Source of the DNA: Planctomycetota bacterium
Lineage (GTDB): Bacteria > Planctomycetota > Phycisphaerae > Phycisphaerales > SM1A02
Assembly: GCA_022562915.1 (NCBI GenBank)
Contig: JADFOJ010000006.1
Location: 1-64,000, forward strand
Length of the DNA stretch: 64,000 bases
Direction of reading: 5' to 3'
The translations under genes were made by a program, and so were the position numbers. The notes below the pieces were generated by a model that had not been told where the DNA came from, searched no databases, and saw nothing but the letters and a program-made list of their open reading frames with translations. The stretch's first letter is position 1; the number at the start of each line of letters is the position of its first letter. Below are positions 30,112 through 43,344 of the stretch, one piece after another.

Positions 30112-31566
30112 ATGATTCACGTTCGTCAAACGGTCCTGTGCGGTCTCGTGTGTGTCGCGATCGGCGGTCCGGCCGCCGCGCAGACCGGCGATGTCCTTCG
30201 GAAGCTCAACAGCGACGACACGGTCAAGGGGACCGAGCGCAGCAAGAGCTACCCCGTGCTCTTTGACGCGTATCTCGAACTCGATCCGCCGCCGATGGAG
30301 ATTTCCGACCGGTTCAACATCAGGACGGTCTCACCGAAGATGCCCAGGTGGCCCTCGGTCAGCGACTGGGTGGAGTCCAACCCGGGCATGGCCGACGCGA
30401 TCCTGGCATGTCTGAAATGCAACATCATCGGCCTGCCGTACGGCGTGGACGAAGTGAAGGCGTCGTACCGCGAGGCGGGACTCTTCGCCGCGGTCGGTGC
30501 CGACGGGAGCCCGCACAGCACCGGGTTCCCGTACCTCAACGCGATGGACGTCATCGCGACCTACGGGACGGCGGAGATCTACCGGCTCTTCGAGGCGAAG
30601 CAGACCGACCGGGCGCTGAAGCTGACGGTCGCGTACCTGTGGATTCTGCGGCAACTCTGCGATCGGGAGTTCCTCGATGAGAAGCTGAGGGGCATCACGC
30701 TGCTCGTCGAGGCGCTGGCGAATGTCCGCAGCACGTTCTACCTGTACCAGGACGACATCACGGCCGAGCAGTTCAAGAGGCTCGCCTGGTTCGACCTGCC
30801 GCAATTGCGCCCGGACCGGAATCGTCTGCACATCCCCGAAGGGGACCGAGTGGTCTCCGAGGCGCTGCTTGACGAGGTGTTCGACCCACGGACCGACCAG
30901 GCGGATCCGGAGAAGTTCGCCGACGCCTTCGCCGAGATCCAGTCGGCCGACGCCCCGCTGACACGGTTCGGGGCGGCCCGCCGGTGGAGGATGATCGCGA
31001 CGGTCCACGGCAGCCTGGAGGCGTCCAAGGACCGGCTCAATCTCATCTACGACGACTGGTGGCGTCGATGGCGGGTGCAGGAGTACGACAGGATTCTCGA
31101 TACTGAGACGCAGTTCGAACGAACCAATCCGGTCCGCTATGCGGCGGTGATCCACTCCATACAGGACATCCAGGACGTCTTCGCGATCCGCAATCTGCTG
31201 ATCGCGTCGGTGAACGGGACGGCGGTGTCCGCGGGGCTCTGCGCATACAAGGTCACCTTCGGGAAGTTCCCCGACGACAAGGAGAAGACCTACGGCCAGT
31301 ACATCCGCAAGCGGATCTCCGACATCGATCCATACGACGAGGACTTCGGGCGGCTCCGCTACCGGATACTGACGGGTGAAGAGTCGATCGACACACTGTT
31401 CGGCCGCCTCCAGCTCGCCGAGGGGCAGTGTCTGCTTTACAGTCGCGGACCGGATCACCGGGACGACCGCGCCCACCGGCACTCCGACGTCGGCGTCGAC
31501 GGCAGCGACTATGTCTTCTGGCCACCGATGAAGACGTTGGCTCGGGAACAAGGGAGGATTAACTAG
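30112..31566 (+). CDS. Exported protein of unknown function
   Basis: The 484-residue protein has a signal peptide ending near PAAAQT and a helical body rich in Trp and Arg with no motif I recognise. The C-terminus carries LLYSRGPDHRDD...GSDYVFWPP, an ending seen on many planctomycete exported proteins that resemble type II secretion-like substrates. The stop codon TAG lies inside the perfect hairpin 31555-31593, so the gene may end on a structure inserted later or on its own terminator. Confidence 0.7.
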   Translation: MIHVRQTVLCGLVCVAIGGPAAAQTGDVLRKLNSDDTVKGTERSKSYPVLFDAYLELDPPPMEISDRFNIRTVSPKMPRWPSVSDWVESNPGMADAILACLKCNIIGLPYGVDEVKASYREAGLFAAVGADGSPHSTGFPYLNAMDVIATYGTAEIYRLFEAKQTDRALKLTVAYLWILRQLCDREFLDEKLRGITLLVEALANVRSTFYLYQDDITAEQFKRLAWFDLPQLRPDRNRLHIPEGDRVVSEALLDEVFDPRTDQADPEKFADAFAEIQSADAPLTRFGAARRWRMIATVHGSLEASKDRLNLIYDDWWRRWRVQEYDRILDTETQFERTNPVRYAAVIHSIQDIQDVFAIRNLLIASVNGTAVSAGLCAYKVTFGKFPDDKEKTYGQYIRKRISDIDPYDEDFGRLRYRILTGEESIDTLFGRLQLAEGQCLLYSRGPDHRDDRAHRHSDVGVDGSDYVFWPPMKTLAREQGRIN

Positions 31567-31593
31567 TGCCGCTTTGCGGCACTAGTTAATCCT
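31555..31593. repeat. Perfect 18-bp inverted repeat with 3-base loop
   Basis: AGGATTAACTAGTGCCGC and its exact complement flank TTT. No long T run follows in either direction; instead a purine-rich stretch with three GAGAGTAGA-like copies (to about 31630) follows. It could act as a transcript-stabilising or terminating hairpin. Arm length is much greater than a typical terminator. Confidence 0.85.
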
Positions 31594-31674
31594 AGAGAGT
31601 AGAAAATAGAGAGTAGAGAGTAGAAAGAAAGACTGGGTTTGTGGGGGGGGGGAGTTGCCGGTACCTTGGTGGGT

Positions 31675-32661
31675 ATGGGTGACGTTGAGAAGATTGTCAT
31701 TATCGGGAGCGGGCCGGCTGGATGGACGGCGGCGATCTATGCGGCGCGCGCGATGCTCGATCCGGTGCTGCTGGAGGGTGTTCCCAAGCAGAATGGGGGG
31801 TATGTGCTGCCGGGCGGTCAGCTGATGTTGACCACTGAAGTGGAGAACTATCCCGGCTATCCGGAGGGGATCGACGGGCCGAAGATGATGGCCGATTTCA
31901 AGAAGCAGGCGCAGCGGTTCGACACTCGGATCGAGGCCCGTGACGTTGTGCGGTGCGATTTCTCGACGCGCCCGTTTACCCTGGAGACACGAAACGGCAG
32001 CGGCGACGAGAAGACCGTGACCGCTCACGCCGTGATCATCGCCAGCGGCGCCACCGCCAACTGGATCGGTCTCGACAACGAGCGGCGGCTCGCCACGTCC
32101 GGCGGCGGAGTGAGCGCGTGCGCCGTGTGTGACGGGGCGCTGCCCGTGTTCCGGGACCAGGTCCTGGTCGTCGTGGGCGGCGGTGACACGGCGATGGAGG
32201 AGGCGTCCTACCTGACGAAGTTCGCCTCCAAGGTCTACATCGTGCACCGGCGCGACTCGTTGCGGGCGAGCAAGGTCATGCAGGACCGCGTTCTCAAGAA
32301 CCCCAAGGCCCAGGTCATCTGGAACTCGGTCGTCACCGACGTGCTGGGCGACGAGATGATCTCGGGGGTCCGGCTGAAGGACGTCGAGACGGGCCTCGAG
32401 CGTGATTTCGAGTGCAAGGGGCTGTTCCTCGCGATCGGCCACACGCCGGCAACCGCGTTTCTCGAGGGCAGCGGGATCGAGCTCGACGACAAGAAGTACC
32501 TCAAGCTCACGGCCGCGCAGCGGATGAACACGAGCATCGAAGGGGTCTTCGCGGCGGGAGACGTGGCCGACTCGACCTACCGCCAGGCCGTCACCGCAGC
32601 GGGCATGGGCTGCCAGGCCGCCCTCGACGCCGAGCGGTGGCTGGCGGAGCAGGGAAAATAG
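31675..32661 (+). CDS. trxB: Thioredoxin reductase
   Basis: The 328-residue flavoprotein has the FAD-binding GSGPAGWTAAIYAARAML, the redox-active CxxC at residues 149-152 in the form CAVCDG (CATCDG in most members), the NADPH-binding VVVGGGDTAMEEA with HRRDSLRASK, and a C-terminal GVFAAGDV FAD motif. It passes electrons from NADPH to thioredoxin in the cytoplasm. The ATG at 31675 follows a G-rich run; an in-frame GTG-type start at 31639 is unlikely. Its stop codon lies within the left arm of the large palindrome. Confidence 0.95.
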   Translation: MGDVEKIVIIGSGPAGWTAAIYAARAMLDPVLLEGVPKQNGGYVLPGGQLMLTTEVENYPGYPEGIDGPKMMADFKKQAQRFDTRIEARDVVRCDFSTRPFTLETRNGSGDEKTVTAHAVIIASGATANWIGLDNERRLATSGGGVSACAVCDGALPVFRDQVLVVVGGGDTAMEEASYLTKFASKVYIVHRRDSLRASKVMQDRVLKNPKAQVIWNSVVTDVLGDEMISGVRLKDVETGLERDFECKGLFLAIGHTPATAFLEGSGIELDDKKYLKLTAAQRMNTSIEGVFAAGDVADSTYRQAVTAAGMGCQAALDAERWLAEQGK

Positions 32662-32805
32662 ACCGGGGGAAAATAGACCGGGGGAAAATAGACCGGGACT
32701 ATTTTTTCGCGGCTCAGGACGCCGCAATATCGCCGATTCGTGGTCGCGAAAAATTAGTCCCGGTCTATTTTCCCCCGGTCTATTTTCCCCCGGTCTATTT
32801 TCTCC
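32651..32805. repeat. Large near-perfect palindrome with triple GGGGAAAATAGACC units
   Basis: The left arm (32651-32711) has three tandem GGGAAAATAGACC-like units then a T-rich GGACTATTTTTTCGCG end. The right arm (about 32745-32805) is the reverse complement with about three mismatches, and roughly 33 bases form the centre. It fills the space between two convergent genes and includes the trxB stop codon. The arms share sequence with the palindrome at 41507, defining a repeat family. Confidence 0.9.
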
Positions 32806-32806
32806 G

Positions 32807-34123
32807 CTAATCCGGCGCAAGCTTGGTAATTATCTTGGCCCCCACCGCGTCGCCCCAGACGTTCACGGTGGTGCGGCACATGTCCACGATCCGGTCCACG
32901 CCCAGGATCACGCCGATGGCGGCGACGGGAAGCAGCTCGCTCTCGGCGGCACCCTGGCCTCTCAGGACCGTGTTGACGGCGGTGATCACGATGATCATGG
33001 TCACGACGCCCGCTGACGGGATGCCGGCCGCGCCGACTGCCGCGAGCGTTGCGGTGATGACCACGATCACCAGCTCGCCGAAGCTCAGATCGATTCCGTA
33101 GAGCTGGAAGAGAAAGACCACGGCGACCGCCTCGTACAGGGCGGTCCCGTCCATGTTCACCGTTGCCCCCAGGGGAAGCACGAAGTTCGCCGCCTTCCTG
33201 GAGCACTCCCCTTCGCCCTCGGCGCTCTCGATCGTGACCGGCAGCGTGGCGGCGCTGGAATCCGTTCCGAAGGCGGTCATCAGGGCGCGGCGCATCTGCC
33301 ACATGTACCGGAACGGGTTTCTCCGGGTAAACATGAACAGTACGGTCGGCAGCACGATCAGACCGTGGATCGCCAGCCCGGAAAGAACCACGATGATGTA
33401 CTTGGCCAGCGGGCCGACCAGTTCCCGCAGACCGATCTTGCCGACCGTCCACGCCACCAGCAGAAAGACGCCGATGGGACAGAGCCAGATGACCCACATC
33501 ACCAGCCTCATGATCGCGTCGAAGAGTCCTTCGAACAGTTCCACGACGATCCTGGTCTTCTCGCCACCGGCCGCGAGGGCGAGACCGAACAGCAGCGCAA
33601 AAGCGATGACCCCCAGGGTGCGGCCCTTGGCCATCTCGTCCACGATGTTCCTGGGCACCAGCTGGCGGAGGATGCTCATCCAGGCGCCGCCGAGGCCCTC
33701 TTCCTGGGCCTCCTTGATGTTGGGGGCGATGTCCGTCGCCCGGGCGAACGACGCATCGGCCTCGCCGACCAGCCGCGCCGCCGTGTCCGCCGGCAGATCG
33801 CCAGGCCGGAACGTCGTCACCAGCACCGCCCCGATGATGCAGGCGATCAGCATGGTCACCAGGTAATACGCCAGCGTGGACCCGCCGACGACCCCCAGCT
33901 TGGAGGGGTCCCCGATGGAGGTCATGCCGACCACGACGCTGACGAACACCAGCGGGATGATCAGCAGGAACAGCGGCCGGATCAGGAACAGGTCGCCGGC
34001 CTGCTTCGTCCAGTGGGCGTCCGGGTTCTCACCCATGGAGCCGTAGAGCACGGTCTGGCCGAAGATCGCCCCGGCCACCAGGCCGAGCAGGATCAGAACG
34101 GTGAGCAGGTTGCTGCCCTTCAT
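32807..34123 (-). CDS. Dicarboxylate/amino acid:cation symporter (DAACS family)
   Basis: The 438-residue carrier has the family features: RPLFLLIIPLVFVSVVVGM in an early span, AFGTDSSAATLPVTIESAEG as the serine-rich re-entrant loop, LPLGATVNMDGTALYEAVAV with the NMDGT ion-site motif, and AAGIPSAGVVTMIIV. It imports C4-dicarboxylates or glutamate-type amino acids with Na+ or H+. The start ATG at 34123 precedes the first span, and an acidic loop near residues 110-150 is somewhat longer than usual. Confidence 0.92.
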   Translation of the reverse strand: MKGSNLLTVLILLGLVAGAIFGQTVLYGSMGENPDAHWTKQAGDLFLIRPLFLLIIPLVFVSVVVGMTSIGDPSKLGVVGGSTLAYYLVTMLIACIIGAVLVTTFRPGDLPADTAARLVGEADASFARATDIAPNIKEAQEEGLGGAWMSILRQLVPRNIVDEMAKGRTLGVIAFALLFGLALAAGGEKTRIVVELFEGLFDAIMRLVMWVIWLCPIGVFLLVAWTVGKIGLRELVGPLAKYIIVVLSGLAIHGLIVLPTVLFMFTRRNPFRYMWQMRRALMTAFGTDSSAATLPVTIESAEGEGECSRKAANFVLPLGATVNMDGTALYEAVAVVFLFQLYGIDLSFGELVIVVITATLAAVGAAGIPSAGVVTMIIVITAVNTVLRGQGAAESELLPVAAIGVILGVDRIVDMCRTTVNVWGDAVGAKIITKLAPD

Positions 34124-36613: not shown

Positions 36614-36803
36614 GGCGAGTGCTCCGTGGGGTGCCGCCTCCGGTGAGGTTTCTTCGACACCCGCCGGAAGAAACTCAACGCAGGTCCGCCCGGCGGCCGC
36701 GCGGCGGGCTCTCTGGACCGGTTGGGCAAGGCTCCGGGTTCCCGGACGCCCGACCACGGGCGACCTCGCTTCGCTCGGTCGACCGTGCCACCCGCTCTCT
36801 TAC

Positions 36804-39717: not shown

Positions 39718-40917
39718 ATGCCGGAGCAACCGACGGAATCCAGGCCGGCATTGTTGTTCACCGCCTTCGAGCCCAGCGGCGACGCGATGGCTGCGCCGGT
39801 GATCCGCGAGCTGATCAAACACCCCAGCGGTCCGAAGGTCTTCGCCTACGGCGGTCCGCAGATGAAGGCCGCCGGCGCAGAGCTTCTGGGCGAGACCGTC
39901 GGCGGCAGCGCCATCGGGTTCAACGCGCTGGGCAAGTCCATGGCTGTTCGCAGGATTGCCCGCAAGATCAAGGCCTGGACCGCGTGGCAGCGGGTTCTCG
40001 TCCACGTCCCCGTGGACTCGCCGGCCGCCAACTTTCCGATCTGCAAGGTGATGCGCGCCTCCGGTGCCCGCGTGATTCACCTCGTGGCCCCGCAGTTGTG
40101 GGCGTGGGGGCGGTGGCGCATCCGCAAGCTGCGGAAGCTCACGGATCTCGTGCTGTGCGTGCTGCCCTTCGAGGAGCAGTGGTTCTCCGACCGCGACGTG
40201 CCCGCCCGGTTCATCGGGCACCCCGCCATTAACCGGGTCGTCGATCTGGACGCGATAAAGGAACGAATGCACGGTCTACCGCAGGGAGCGCCGCGCCTGG
40301 GCCTCTTCCCCGGCTCCCGGCCCCACGAAGTGAAGGCGAACACGCGGCTGCTCGTGGACGCATACGCCGAACTCCAGGCGCGGCATTCGGGTCTGTGCGG
40401 GGTGATGGTCGCGGCGTCCCCGGAGCTTGCGAAGATCGTTCGTCGCCGGATCCGGGTCTTTCCGACGAACCTGCACATGACCACCGGCGCCGCCGATGCG
40501 GTGATCGCCTGGAGCGACCTGGCGCTGGCGGTCTCGGGCACGATTACCCTCGACATCGCCGTGCAGCGGAAGCCGATGATCGGCGTCTACAAGACGGGGT
40601 TGCTGACATGGCTCACCGCGAAGCTCCTGATTCACACGCACTACTGGCTTCTGCCCAACATCATCGCCGAGCGCGAGATCTCTCCCGAATTCGTGCCGCA
40701 CATCGGCGGCCCGATGCCCATCGTGCGCGAGGCGACGCGTTACCTGCTGGATTCCAAGCACGCGGCCATCCAGAGCGAGGAGTTGCACCGCGTCTGCCTG
40801 CGGTTTGCCAACCACGATCCCGCCAAGGACGCCGTCCGGTTCATCGTCAAGACGCTTCAGCAGGGCGTACGGGATAAAGCCCAAGCGAGCAGCGACGGTT
40901 CCCCAGCCGGTCAGTGA
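39718..40917 (+). CDS. lpxB: Lipid-A-disaccharide synthase
   Basis: The 399-residue enzyme shows the LpxB pattern: LFTAFEPSGDAMAAPVI at the N-terminus, VDSPAANFPICKVMRASGAR, the APQLWAWGRWR sequence of the family, IGHPAI, LFPGSRPHEVK with the nucleotide-sugar loop, and SGTITLDIAVQRKPMIGVYK. It joins UDP-diacylglucosamine and lipid X to form the lipid A disaccharide at the inner membrane. This supports a lipid A-containing outer membrane. The 3' end overlaps the convergent gene at 40847 by 71 bases. Confidence 0.94.
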   Translation: MPEQPTESRPALLFTAFEPSGDAMAAPVIRELIKHPSGPKVFAYGGPQMKAAGAELLGETVGGSAIGFNALGKSMAVRRIARKIKAWTAWQRVLVHVPVDSPAANFPICKVMRASGARVIHLVAPQLWAWGRWRIRKLRKLTDLVLCVLPFEEQWFSDRDVPARFIGHPAINRVVDLDAIKERMHGLPQGAPRLGLFPGSRPHEVKANTRLLVDAYAELQARHSGLCGVMVAASPELAKIVRRRIRVFPTNLHMTTGAADAVIAWSDLALAVSGTITLDIAVQRKPMIGVYKTGLLTWLTAKLLIHTHYWLLPNIIAEREISPEFVPHIGGPMPIVREATRYLLDSKHAAIQSEELHRVCLRFANHDPAKDAVRFIVKTLQQGVRDKAQASSDGSPAGQ

Positions 40918-41497
40918 TCTCGAAGCCGCGGACGCTGGGCGACCGGACGGAAAGGCCGCACCGCAGGCAGTGGTCGAGCCAGGCCGCGAGGTCGTGGTCG
41001 ACCGTCTTCCGGTCGCGGGCGAAGAGCACGATCAAGACACCGGCGTGAAGAATGCCGCGGTTTCGGCTGAGCTTCTGAACGTCCCGGGCCGCGCCGGTGA
41101 GCAGTTGAGCCGAGTAGCGGCTGTTGGGCCCGTCCGGCGTGAACTGGCCGATGACCTTGACCTCCAGCCAGAACGCCTCGTCCAGCGGCACCGGCCGCGG
41201 CGGATCGAAGAGCGTCGGCTCGCGCCACGGCGCATGCAGGGGCTGCCCGTCAGTGGTCACGACGAGGTCGCATCGCTCGCACTCGGTCTCGCGGCGAGGT
41301 CGAGCCGGTTGCGGGTACATCTGCTCCGGGTAGACGCCGTATCCGCTCGCTTCAAGCCCACGGCGGAGCACCGGGTGAAGACGCACCTCGTCGAGTGAGT
41401 CCAGCCCGTGCGGGGACTGCCGGTGGTCCAGCCGCGCGGCCTCGGTGGCAAGGGCATCGTTCAGCGCGTCGGCGAGGTGGGAGACGGAAAAAGACAC
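40847..41497 (-). CDS. Hypothetical protein with possible PD-(D/E)XK nuclease core
   Basis: The 216-residue protein is unrecognised by name. A core of 'CERCDLVVTTDGQ' followed by EAFWLEVKVIGQF gives a D...ExK arrangement like that of PD-(D/E)XK nucleases. YSAQLLTGAARDVQKLSRN and ILHAGVLIVLFARD could be the following helix and strand. This is a fold guess from spacing only. The start is a GTG at 41497, and its upstream region abuts the palindromic element. The 3' end overlaps lpxB by 71 bases on the opposite strand. Confidence 0.6.
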   Translation of the reverse strand: MSFSVSHLADALNDALATEAARLDHRQSPHGLDSLDEVRLHPVLRRGLEASGYGVYPEQMYPQPARPRRETECERCDLVVTTDGQPLHAPWREPTLFDPPRPVPLDEAFWLEVKVIGQFTPDGPNSRYSAQLLTGAARDVQKLSRNRGILHAGVLIVLFARDRKTVDHDLAAWLDHCLRCGLSVRSPSVRGFEITDRLGNRRCSLGLYPVRPAEAS

Positions 41498-41506
41498 CGG
41501 ACGGGG

Positions 41507-41598
41507 CGGGAAAAGAGACCGGGTCTATTTTTCGTGTCGGATGCCTGCGATTGTCTGACAATCCCTGTGGCGAAAAATAGACCCGGTCTCTTTTCCCG
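41507..41598. repeat. Large palindrome, perfect 28-bp arms
   Basis: The arm CGGGAAAAGAGACCGGGTCT followed by ATTTTTCG (41507-41534) is exactly complementary to 41571-41598, with 36 bases between. It shares the GGGAAAA-AGACCGGG and CTATTTTT-CG parts with the element at 32651. A further degenerate half-copy (GGAAAAAGACACCGG) lies just outside near 41487-41500. Confidence 0.9.
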
Positions 41599-43344
41599 CT
41601 ACTCCTGCACATCCTCCCCGCTGATGACATCGGTGATCTTCGGGGCCGCGTGGGGGTGGAACTCGCCGGCCTTGAGCTTGCCTATGTACTGGTGGTAGGC
41701 CTTCATCGCCTGGTGGCCGAAGATGAGCATGATCGGGATGTTCGCCAGCAGCATCAGGCCGGTGCCGAGGCTCGTGAGGGCGTCGAGTTCTGCCTCGGTG
41801 CTGACCAGTTGCGGGATCGCCGCGACGATGATCAGCGCGCAGTAGACGTACTTGTAGGGTGTCACGGAACGCTGGCCGAGGAGATAGACCATCCCCTGCT
41901 CGCCGTAGTAGCTCCAGGAGATCATCGTGGAGATGGCGAACAGCCACGCGGCCAGCGTCACGAGCCACTTGCCGAGTCCCTCGGTCACGTTGTCGAAGGC
42001 CTTGGCGGTCAGCGTGGCCCCCTTGTAGTCAAAGAAGATGCTGCCGGAGGCGACGTCCGTCTTGTCCAGCGCGAGGGAGGGCTCCGTGTTGCTCTTGAGT
42101 CGCTTCCACTCGATCACGGCGGCATCCCCGTCGTGGCGCACGATGCCGGTGATGCTGTGAAGACTGTTGCCCGTCTGCGGGTTACTGTCGGCCGTGACGA
42201 TGATCTTGACGGTGTCGGTCCAGTTGTCGTCGATCAGCCCGGTCACGTCAGTCGTTTCCAGTGTCCACGTGTTGACCTCGCCCTCGACCGCGACGACCTG
42301 CGGAAGCACGTCGAGGGTGGCCTCGGGTCCCCGTTTCCAGATGCCGCTGGTCAGGATCACCAGCGCCGTGAGCGTGCAGACGACGATCGTGTCGATGAAC
42401 GGCTCAAGGCCCGACACGACTGCCTCACGGACGGGCTCACTGGTCTTTGCCGCCGAGTGGGCGATCGGGGCGGACCCCTGTCCCGCCTCGTTGGAGAACA
42501 GCGCCCTCTTCATGCCCCAGAGAAATGCGTAGCCGAGCGTGCCCCCGATGAACGCGCCCTGCGCCTCCAGCGGGCTGAAGGCACTCTTGACGATGAGCGC
42601 GAGCATGGAGGGCACCACGTCGATCTTCATGATCAGCACGTACACCGCCGCGATCAGGTACAGCGCACACATTACCGGGACCAGGCGGCCCGCCACCGCG
42701 CCGATCCGCTTGATGCCCCCGAGGATCACCATGCCCACCAGGATGGCGAGCACGATGCCCGTGGCGATCTGCGGCACGCCGAAGTACTGGTGGGTGATGT
42801 CCGCCACGTTCCAGGACTGGAACATGTTCCCGCCGGTGACGGCCGAGACCAGCAGCGTGACGCAGAAGATCCCGCCCAGGAGCTTGCCGAGCCACGCGAG
42901 CCCGGGGTTCCACTTCGCGAGGCCCTTGCTGACGACCCACATCGCGCCGCCGTGGGGGTTGTCCGGGTCATCGGTGTTGCGGTAGAGCATCGCCAGCGTG
43001 ACCTCGGTGGTCTTGAGCGCCATGCCCACCGCGCCGACGACCCACATCCAGAAGATGGCGCCCGGCCCGCCGAGACCGATGGCAAGCGCCACGCCGCCGA
43101 TGTTGCCGAGGCCCACCGTGGCGGACAGCGCCGCCGACAGCGCCTGGAAATGGTTGATCGCGCCGGGGTCGCCAGGATCGTCGTACTTGCCGCGGGTGAC
43201 GGCCACGCCGTGGGTCAGCGCGCGGTACTGGCAGAAGCCGCTCCATACAGTGAACAGCACTCCCGTGGCCAGAACCGTGTAGAGCACGGTATCGGCCCAG
43301 ATGATGTCGTTAATGGCCTCGATGATCTCCATGAGCCCGTGCAT
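41599..43344 (-). CDS. Alanine/glycine:cation symporter (AGCS family)
   Basis: The 581-residue carrier has the AGCS features: ALSAALSATVGLGNIGGVALAI near the N-terminus, GGAMWVVSKGL, the conserved MKRALFSNEAGQGSAPIAHSAA signature region, and MISWSYYGEQGMVYLLG. A hydrophilic insert of about 110 residues (about 330-445) separates two late spans and is not part of the standard family, which averages about 450-500 residues. It imports alanine or glycine with sodium. It lies next to another amino-acid transporter gene on the same strand. Confidence 0.93.
   Translation of the reverse strand: MHGLMEIIEAINDIIWADTVLYTVLATGVLFTVWSGFCQYRALTHGVAVTRGKYDDPGDPGAINHFQALSAALSATVGLGNIGGVALAIGLGGPGAIFWMWVVGAVGMALKTTEVTLAMLYRNTDDPDNPHGGAMWVVSKGLAKWNPGLAWLGKLLGGIFCVTLLVSAVTGGNMFQSWNVADITHQYFGVPQIATGIVLAILVGMVILGGIKRIGAVAGRLVPVMCALYLIAAVYVLIMKIDVVPSMLALIVKSAFSPLEAQGAFIGGTLGYAFLWGMKRALFSNEAGQGSAPIAHSAAKTSEPVREAVVSGLEPFIDTIVVCTLTALVILTSGIWKRGPEATLDVLPQVVAVEGEVNTWTLETTDVTGLIDDNWTDTVKIIVTADSNPQTGNSLHSITGIVRHDGDAAVIEWKRLKSNTEPSLALDKTDVASGSIFFDYKGATLTAKAFDNVTEGLGKWLVTLAAWLFAISTMISWSYYGEQGMVYLLGQRSVTPYKYVYCALIIVAAIPQLVSTEAELDALTSLGTGLMLLANIPIMLIFGHQAMKAYHQYIGKLKAGEFHPHAAPKITDVISGEDVQE

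Follow-up and report, generated by a model that had tools for sequence, protein, structure and literature searches.

The closest described systems are the REPINs and their RAYTs (Bertels and Rainey 2011, PMC3116915), which are dispersed, extragenic, hairpin-forming inverted doublets with a spacer, just as the repeat family described here (family A), and also resemble it in having a transposase gene flanked by its own repeat and singlets that represent remnants. Complementary loop variants have been reported in REP families tagged with GTAG/GTGG (PMC3733652), and they are also present in family B, a second repeat of the genome under study. Certain TnpA-Y1 genes (subclass 2.6 and class 3) have on their flanks atypical secondary structures of which the host genome contains further copies, and class 3 is found mainly in Planctomycetes, Acidobacteria and Proteobacteria (PMC6006769). 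With regard to hairpins in general, template switching makes and mends perfect ones (PMC8794818) and causes quasipalindrome mutations in E. coli (PMC7202029). The way in which REP and REPIN hairpins spread, and their effects on flanking DNA, are poorly known.

The palindromes of the window

The window, that is, the whole 64-kb stretch of DNA that was analysed, contains only two elements with near-perfect arms of 29 nt or more, one around position 41507 and the other at 32648-32808. The first element and its neighbours are arranged as follows:

41506 to 41534, + strand: left arm, GCGGGAAAAGAGACCGGGTCTATTTTTCG, made up of a REP-like unit, in itself imperfectly palindromic, and a short outer arm
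41535 to 41570, no strand: spacer of 36 nt, the hairpin loop, unlike that of other copies
41571 to 41599, - strand: right arm, reverse-complementary to the left one at every position
41599 to 43344, - strand: agcS-type amino acid carrier gene (gene model; NCBIfam TIGR00835, 408 bits)
40847 to 41497, - strand: predicted ORF of 216 aa (gene model; no Pfam or NCBIfam match)

The first-pass annotation had described this palindrome as having 28-nt arms at 41507-41598; the palindrome is real, and its extent needs correction by a single base, to an inverted repeat of 29 nt (41506-41534 and 41571-41599) that is 100% complementary, with 36 nt between the arms. The right arm is directly adjoined by the agcS stop codon, and the predicted start of the 216-aa ORF is 9 nt from the element. 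The fold is far stronger than that of shuffled sequences, both for the DNA (z -9.7) and for RNA in the orientation of agcS (z -7.6). No Rfam match was found within the 64-kb window, which speaks against a known RNA family, and a scan for intrinsic terminators, whose overall counts are at chance level, gave none at the element. This copy is a single-unit, divergent member of family A, and its outer arm is short, reaching 10 nt beyond the AGACC core.

The second element and two of its neighbours, together with a unit of family B, occupy these positions:

32648 to 32808, no strand: triple-unit member of family A, 64-nt arms 95% complementary, 33-nt spacer
31669 to 32661, + strand: trxB, thioredoxin reductase (gene model; TIGR01292, 360 bits)
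32807 to 34123, - strand: glutamate/C4-dicarboxylate:proton symporter gene (gene model; profile match)
36754 to 36791, - strand: family B unit, GTGGCACGGTCGACC-loop-GGTCGCCCGTGG, just downstream of aspS

The TAG stop codon of trxB (32661) falls within the triple-unit element, and on the other side the symporter gene, on the opposite strand, stops at 32807. The earlier proposal that the two elements belong to one family and differ in their centre holds, given that they have in common GGGAAAA(T/G)AGACCGGG and CTATTTTT(T)CG and that their spacers differ; it is also correct that both are located at gene 3' ends (agcS at 41507; trxB and the symporter gene at 32651). A separate hairpin, free of family A (31555-31593; 18-bp perfect stem, 3-nt loop, no repeat inside), takes in the last codons and the stop of the gene at 30112-31566 and is possibly a simple template-switch product.

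A dispersed family of inverted doublets

The 10-mer ATAGACCGGG has at least 168 matches (88+80) in the 3.59-Mb genome (153 contigs), while its reversed control has 2 (1+1), so the genome-wide search bears out the dispersed family that had been proposed from the two copies of the window. The copy number is a lower bound. The loci were studied as stretches around the matches, with about 370 kb of sequence in all, and they correspond to roughly a hundred dispersed copies, of which about 80 can be read as inverted doublets, plus some 30 singlets, part of them cut by contig ends. The catalogue comprises 63 +- doublets (of which L001, at the start of a contig, is an artefact of slicing and was left out) and 17 higher forms; subtypes defined by the spacer have a total core of mostly 70-78 nt, or 29-55 nt in the short forms. 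Among the higher forms there are symmetric ones (++--, n = 8; +++---, at 32660 of the window; and, in L089, a triple arm of 48 bp) and one-sided expansions (+--, n = 4; ++-, n = 2). In L008, one A copy is nested within the spacer of another. Single and triple-unit forms, anticipated by the first-pass annotation, are therefore present in the catalogue, and so are double ones. These multi-unit forms are better explained by the expansion of one arm and its subsequent mirroring than by separate mobile unit types.

A tandem or satellite array is ruled out, since the copies are dispersed over many contigs. Copies of family A lie near or at the ends of contigs C14, C22, C23, C26, C47, C63 and C77, and likewise of C81, C86, C106, C120, C128, C130 and C139; because this position is so common, the assembly is probably interrupted by the repeat, which would have more copies in reality than were counted. 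A long homopolymer C tract is seen beside the A copy at the end of contig C6 (right flank of L004), and at 2050-2124 of L080 there is a hairpin with a perfect stem of 36 bp and a loop of 3 nt, which includes GGGGACAGATC and resembles the REPs of other transposase groups. Among 60 relatives, none of the same genus, the counts of ATAGACCGGG are near control level and the repeat is absent, and a scan for exact doublets in 85k genomes gave 5 scattered matches in unrelated organisms, against a chance estimate of about 7.

Y1 transposase genes

The genome has three Y1_Tnp genes (C86/L032, C34/L031 and C83/L033), and the first is associated with family A:

L032 (contig C86), ORF 1180 to 1872: Y1 (IS200-like) transposase of 230 aa, with A units at 1196 and 1909-1962

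This gene is bordered by an A unit and, at its opposite end, by an A doublet, and its frame ends inside the A unit. The protein scores 43.7 bits against PF01797 (cut-off 23) and 46 bits against the curated RAYT model NF047646 (E 4.8e-12; cut-off 80), and HWH and YVERN motifs can be read in its sequence. Its nearest homologues within the taxonomic family are about 50% identical, and several of them have flanking inverted doublets with a quite different sequence; a comparison by sequence with solved structures gave no match. Given that the transposase gene is flanked by the A repeat, family A is likely mobile, and this RAYT-type enzyme is probably what spreads it. The Y1 gene of L033 is flanked by family B and reaches 87.3 bits against NF047646, and that of L031 is ruled out as the transposase of family A, as the repeat found beside it is another one, family C.

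Location at gene ends

The 68 clean doublets are found between tail-to-tail genes (34), between tandem genes (24), between head-to-head genes (1), inside a predicted gene (3) or at contig edges (6), with a median of 17 nt from the gene stop to the A core; genes were predicted with a simple caller based on codon usage, for which the genes of the window served as the training set, so that single gene-to-core distances are approximate. Fifteen genes stop on a codon of the A element itself (9 on TAG and 6 on TAA), which means that their proteins end in a repeat-encoded K or KIDR(D/E). In L122, L092, L004, L099, L032 and other loci the protein end is KIDRE or KIDRD, and the frame enters the repeat and stops on TAA.

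Mirrored outer arms

Outside the repeat, the flanks of one copy are complementary to each other and not to the flanks of other copies. This complementarity was evaluated in 48 loci (the 68 clean copies less the 20 that have B-like flanks): the mean score is 9.5 for matched flanks vs 1.3 for mismatched ones (0 of 20000 permutations), and 22 of the 48 copies exceed the 99th percentile of the control, where 0.5 would be expected. The length of the outer arm varies from 0 to about 43 nt, many copies having none at all, and the 5' outer arms are purine-biased (73% vs 29%). Unit expansions are mirrored too, in the same way as the outer arms.

The source of the reverse-complement copy can be identified in the cases of pdxH (L127) and of the 3-hydroxybutyryl-CoA dehydrogenase gene, hbd (L014). 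The arm of L127 is CGGCTGAGCCCGTGAGGGGAAGAAG: one side holds the last pdxH codons (RLSP-stop), in a protein that matches Pfam PNP_phzG_C up to its last residue/position, and the other side is the mirror image of that end, located in intergenic DNA after the stop of the neighbouring gene. The arm of L014 holds the family-conserved end of hbd, which aligns with solved homologues up to residue 289/292, and its mirror copy, which has two differences, sits in a short unassigned frame. A (GAA)n tract is mirrored as (TTC)n in L099. As for the convergent gene pairs, in 6 out of 27 the two stops are equidistant from the core (within 1 nt), compared with a permutation mean of 1.9 (568 of 100000 permutations as high).

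Families B and C

Family B (GTGGCACGGTCGAG-loop-CTCGCCCGTGG) has 253 half-site matches genome-wide with at most 2 mismatches; it has a GTGG foot, is more abundant than family A and flanks its own RAYT gene (L033, C83). Its tip carries very variable inner hairpins, for example AGTCCGCCGCAGGCGGACT, AGCGAAGCGAG or TTGC. Mirrored outer arms were not found in 14 doublets of family B from this genome (mean score 0.5), in 23 doublets of family C, mostly from a related genus, or, by eye, in a further family in G081. The absence of arms in families B and C indicates that they are not common to all REPINs, although the cores of family C are all 76 nt and look young, so age may explain part of the difference from family A. 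The exact-match copies of family C (AAAAAGGGGTCGGGAGTC; L031/L190/L199/L207), among the matches listed, are all on C34, and the family is dispersed in g37, another genus of the same taxonomic family; its presence on C34 is due either to horizontal transfer or to contamination of the assembly with this contig.

About 13 identifiable B units hold an A copy in their hairpin loop. At one position of the B stem, T and C are mismatched in 27 of the 38 empty units vs 1 of the 13 A-filled ones; this position is strictly paired in 4 of the 13 filled units vs 1 of the 38 empty ones (p 0.012), a difference that fits arm correction or preferential insertion. The A copies carried by family B may share ancestry, because many of them have the CCAG/CTGG inner variant.

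Origin of the mirrored arms

The account that we favour, and regard as reasonably probable, is that family A is a REPIN-like population whose hairpins undergo template switching, which copies one flank onto the other. In the order of events that we infer, two REP-like units, inverted around a spacer, would fold into one long hairpin, and the RAYT-type Y1 transposase from C86 would spread family A to gene 3' ends. After insertion, replication would be especially prone to template switching at the hairpin: the nascent strand would fold back on it, copy the adjacent flank and then rejoin the template, and the other flank would be overwritten by a mirror copy as a result. The palindrome would thus be extended outward, its arms homogenised and tandem expansions (two- and three-unit forms) mirrored. 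The one-sided +-- and ++- forms that exist beside the symmetric ones are expected intermediates of template switching. This is also the simplest account, since it joins two known processes, the spread of REPINs by RAYTs (PMC3116915 and PMC6006769) and template switching at hairpins (PMC8794818 and PMC7202029). Two observations count against it, namely the excess of purines in the 5' outer arms, which goes beyond what template switching alone would produce, and the short outer arm of the 41507 copy itself. Likewise, a general hairpin-driven process needs extra reasons, such as age or arm perfection, given that families B and C lack the arms.

A more far-reaching proposal, which we put forward only tentatively, is that the REPIN family actively mirrors host flanks on insertion or replication, or targets hairpin tips, and that it grows by copying gene ends, overwrites C-termini and stop codons, and nests in the loops of a second family. 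Insertion alone would suffice if family A entered, at the tip, hairpins that were already in place (terminators or other REPs) and the outer arms were the stems of those targets, and the A copies found in the loop of about 13 B units, the B-like flanks of 20 of the 68 clean copies, the copy nested in the spacer of another (L008) and the existence of A-free hairpins that include a gene stop (31555-31593 in the window) are in line with it. However, A-free arms of at least 14 nt are rare (5 outside families A and B in about 370 kb, against 22 long-armed non-B copies), conserved coding ends or (GAA)n/(TTC)n arms are improbable as ready-made targets, and the stronger pairing of A-filled B units (4/13 vs 1/38, p 0.012) fits later correction; we therefore judge this explanation rather unlikely.

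It is still less probable that the copies are bidirectional terminators or stabilisers of mRNA 3' ends and that selection for long perfect stems alone made the arms. Stepwise selection could hardly build locus-specific arms of 25-43 nt, the terminator scan made no call at the 41507 element, and family B, also located at gene ends, has no mirrored arms, even if the gene-end sites, the single head-to-head case and the very stable RNA fold are what such a function would predict; selection for stems may act together with a copying mechanism. The least likely explanation of all is that transposition itself yields an inverted target duplication, the mirrored arms being the footprint of each A insertion: of the families examined, A alone has them, but no HUH transposase is known to act in this way, arm length ranges between 0 and about 43 nt, many copies being armless, and one-sided expansions are present.

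Returning to template switching, the mirrored gene ends on both sides of many copies suggest that local copying errors, set off by the hairpins, alter the tails of genes; in this way, small repeats could reshape the ends of the genes beside them. With about 80 copies at one-sided, two-sided and nested stages, and two control families, the genome makes it possible to test for template switching at mobile hairpins of bacteria.

Comparison with known systems

With respect to the criteria for REPIN/RAYT systems, family A is dispersed, present in high copy number and mostly extragenic (3 of 68 in a predicted gene), consists of inverted doublets and flanks a Y1 gene. The GT[AG]G foot typical of REP hairpins is not conserved in its units, unlike those of family B, which fits the GTAG/GTGG-tagged REP families (PMC3733652) by its GTGG and its variable-loop hairpin, whereas family A is untagged. 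Since it lacks the GTAG/GTGG foot, and since atypical flanks have been reported for some TnpA-Y1 subclasses, we have named it REPIN-like rather than a typical REP family. It resembles subclass 2.6 and class 3 in having a Y1 gene with atypical flanking structures repeated in the genome, but the Y motif of its transposase is YVERN, unlike the Y----Q signature of class 3 (PMC6006769).

The locus-specific mirrored arms and the symmetric two- and three-unit arms of family A are not described in the accessible portions of PMC3116915, where the ordered clusters consist of entire REPINs repeated in tandem together with their flanks. The hairpins generated by template switching (PMC8794818) and the quasipalindromes of E. 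coli (PMC7202029) share with family A the reverse-complement copying between arms and the perfect stems; those cases involve RNA genes and short quasipalindromes, while in family A the seed is a repeat that appears to be mobile, and gene ends are part of the flank that is copied. Taken together, these comparisons place family A within a known general kind of element, from which it is set apart by an atypical unit and by an unusual, quantified pattern of mirrored flanks.
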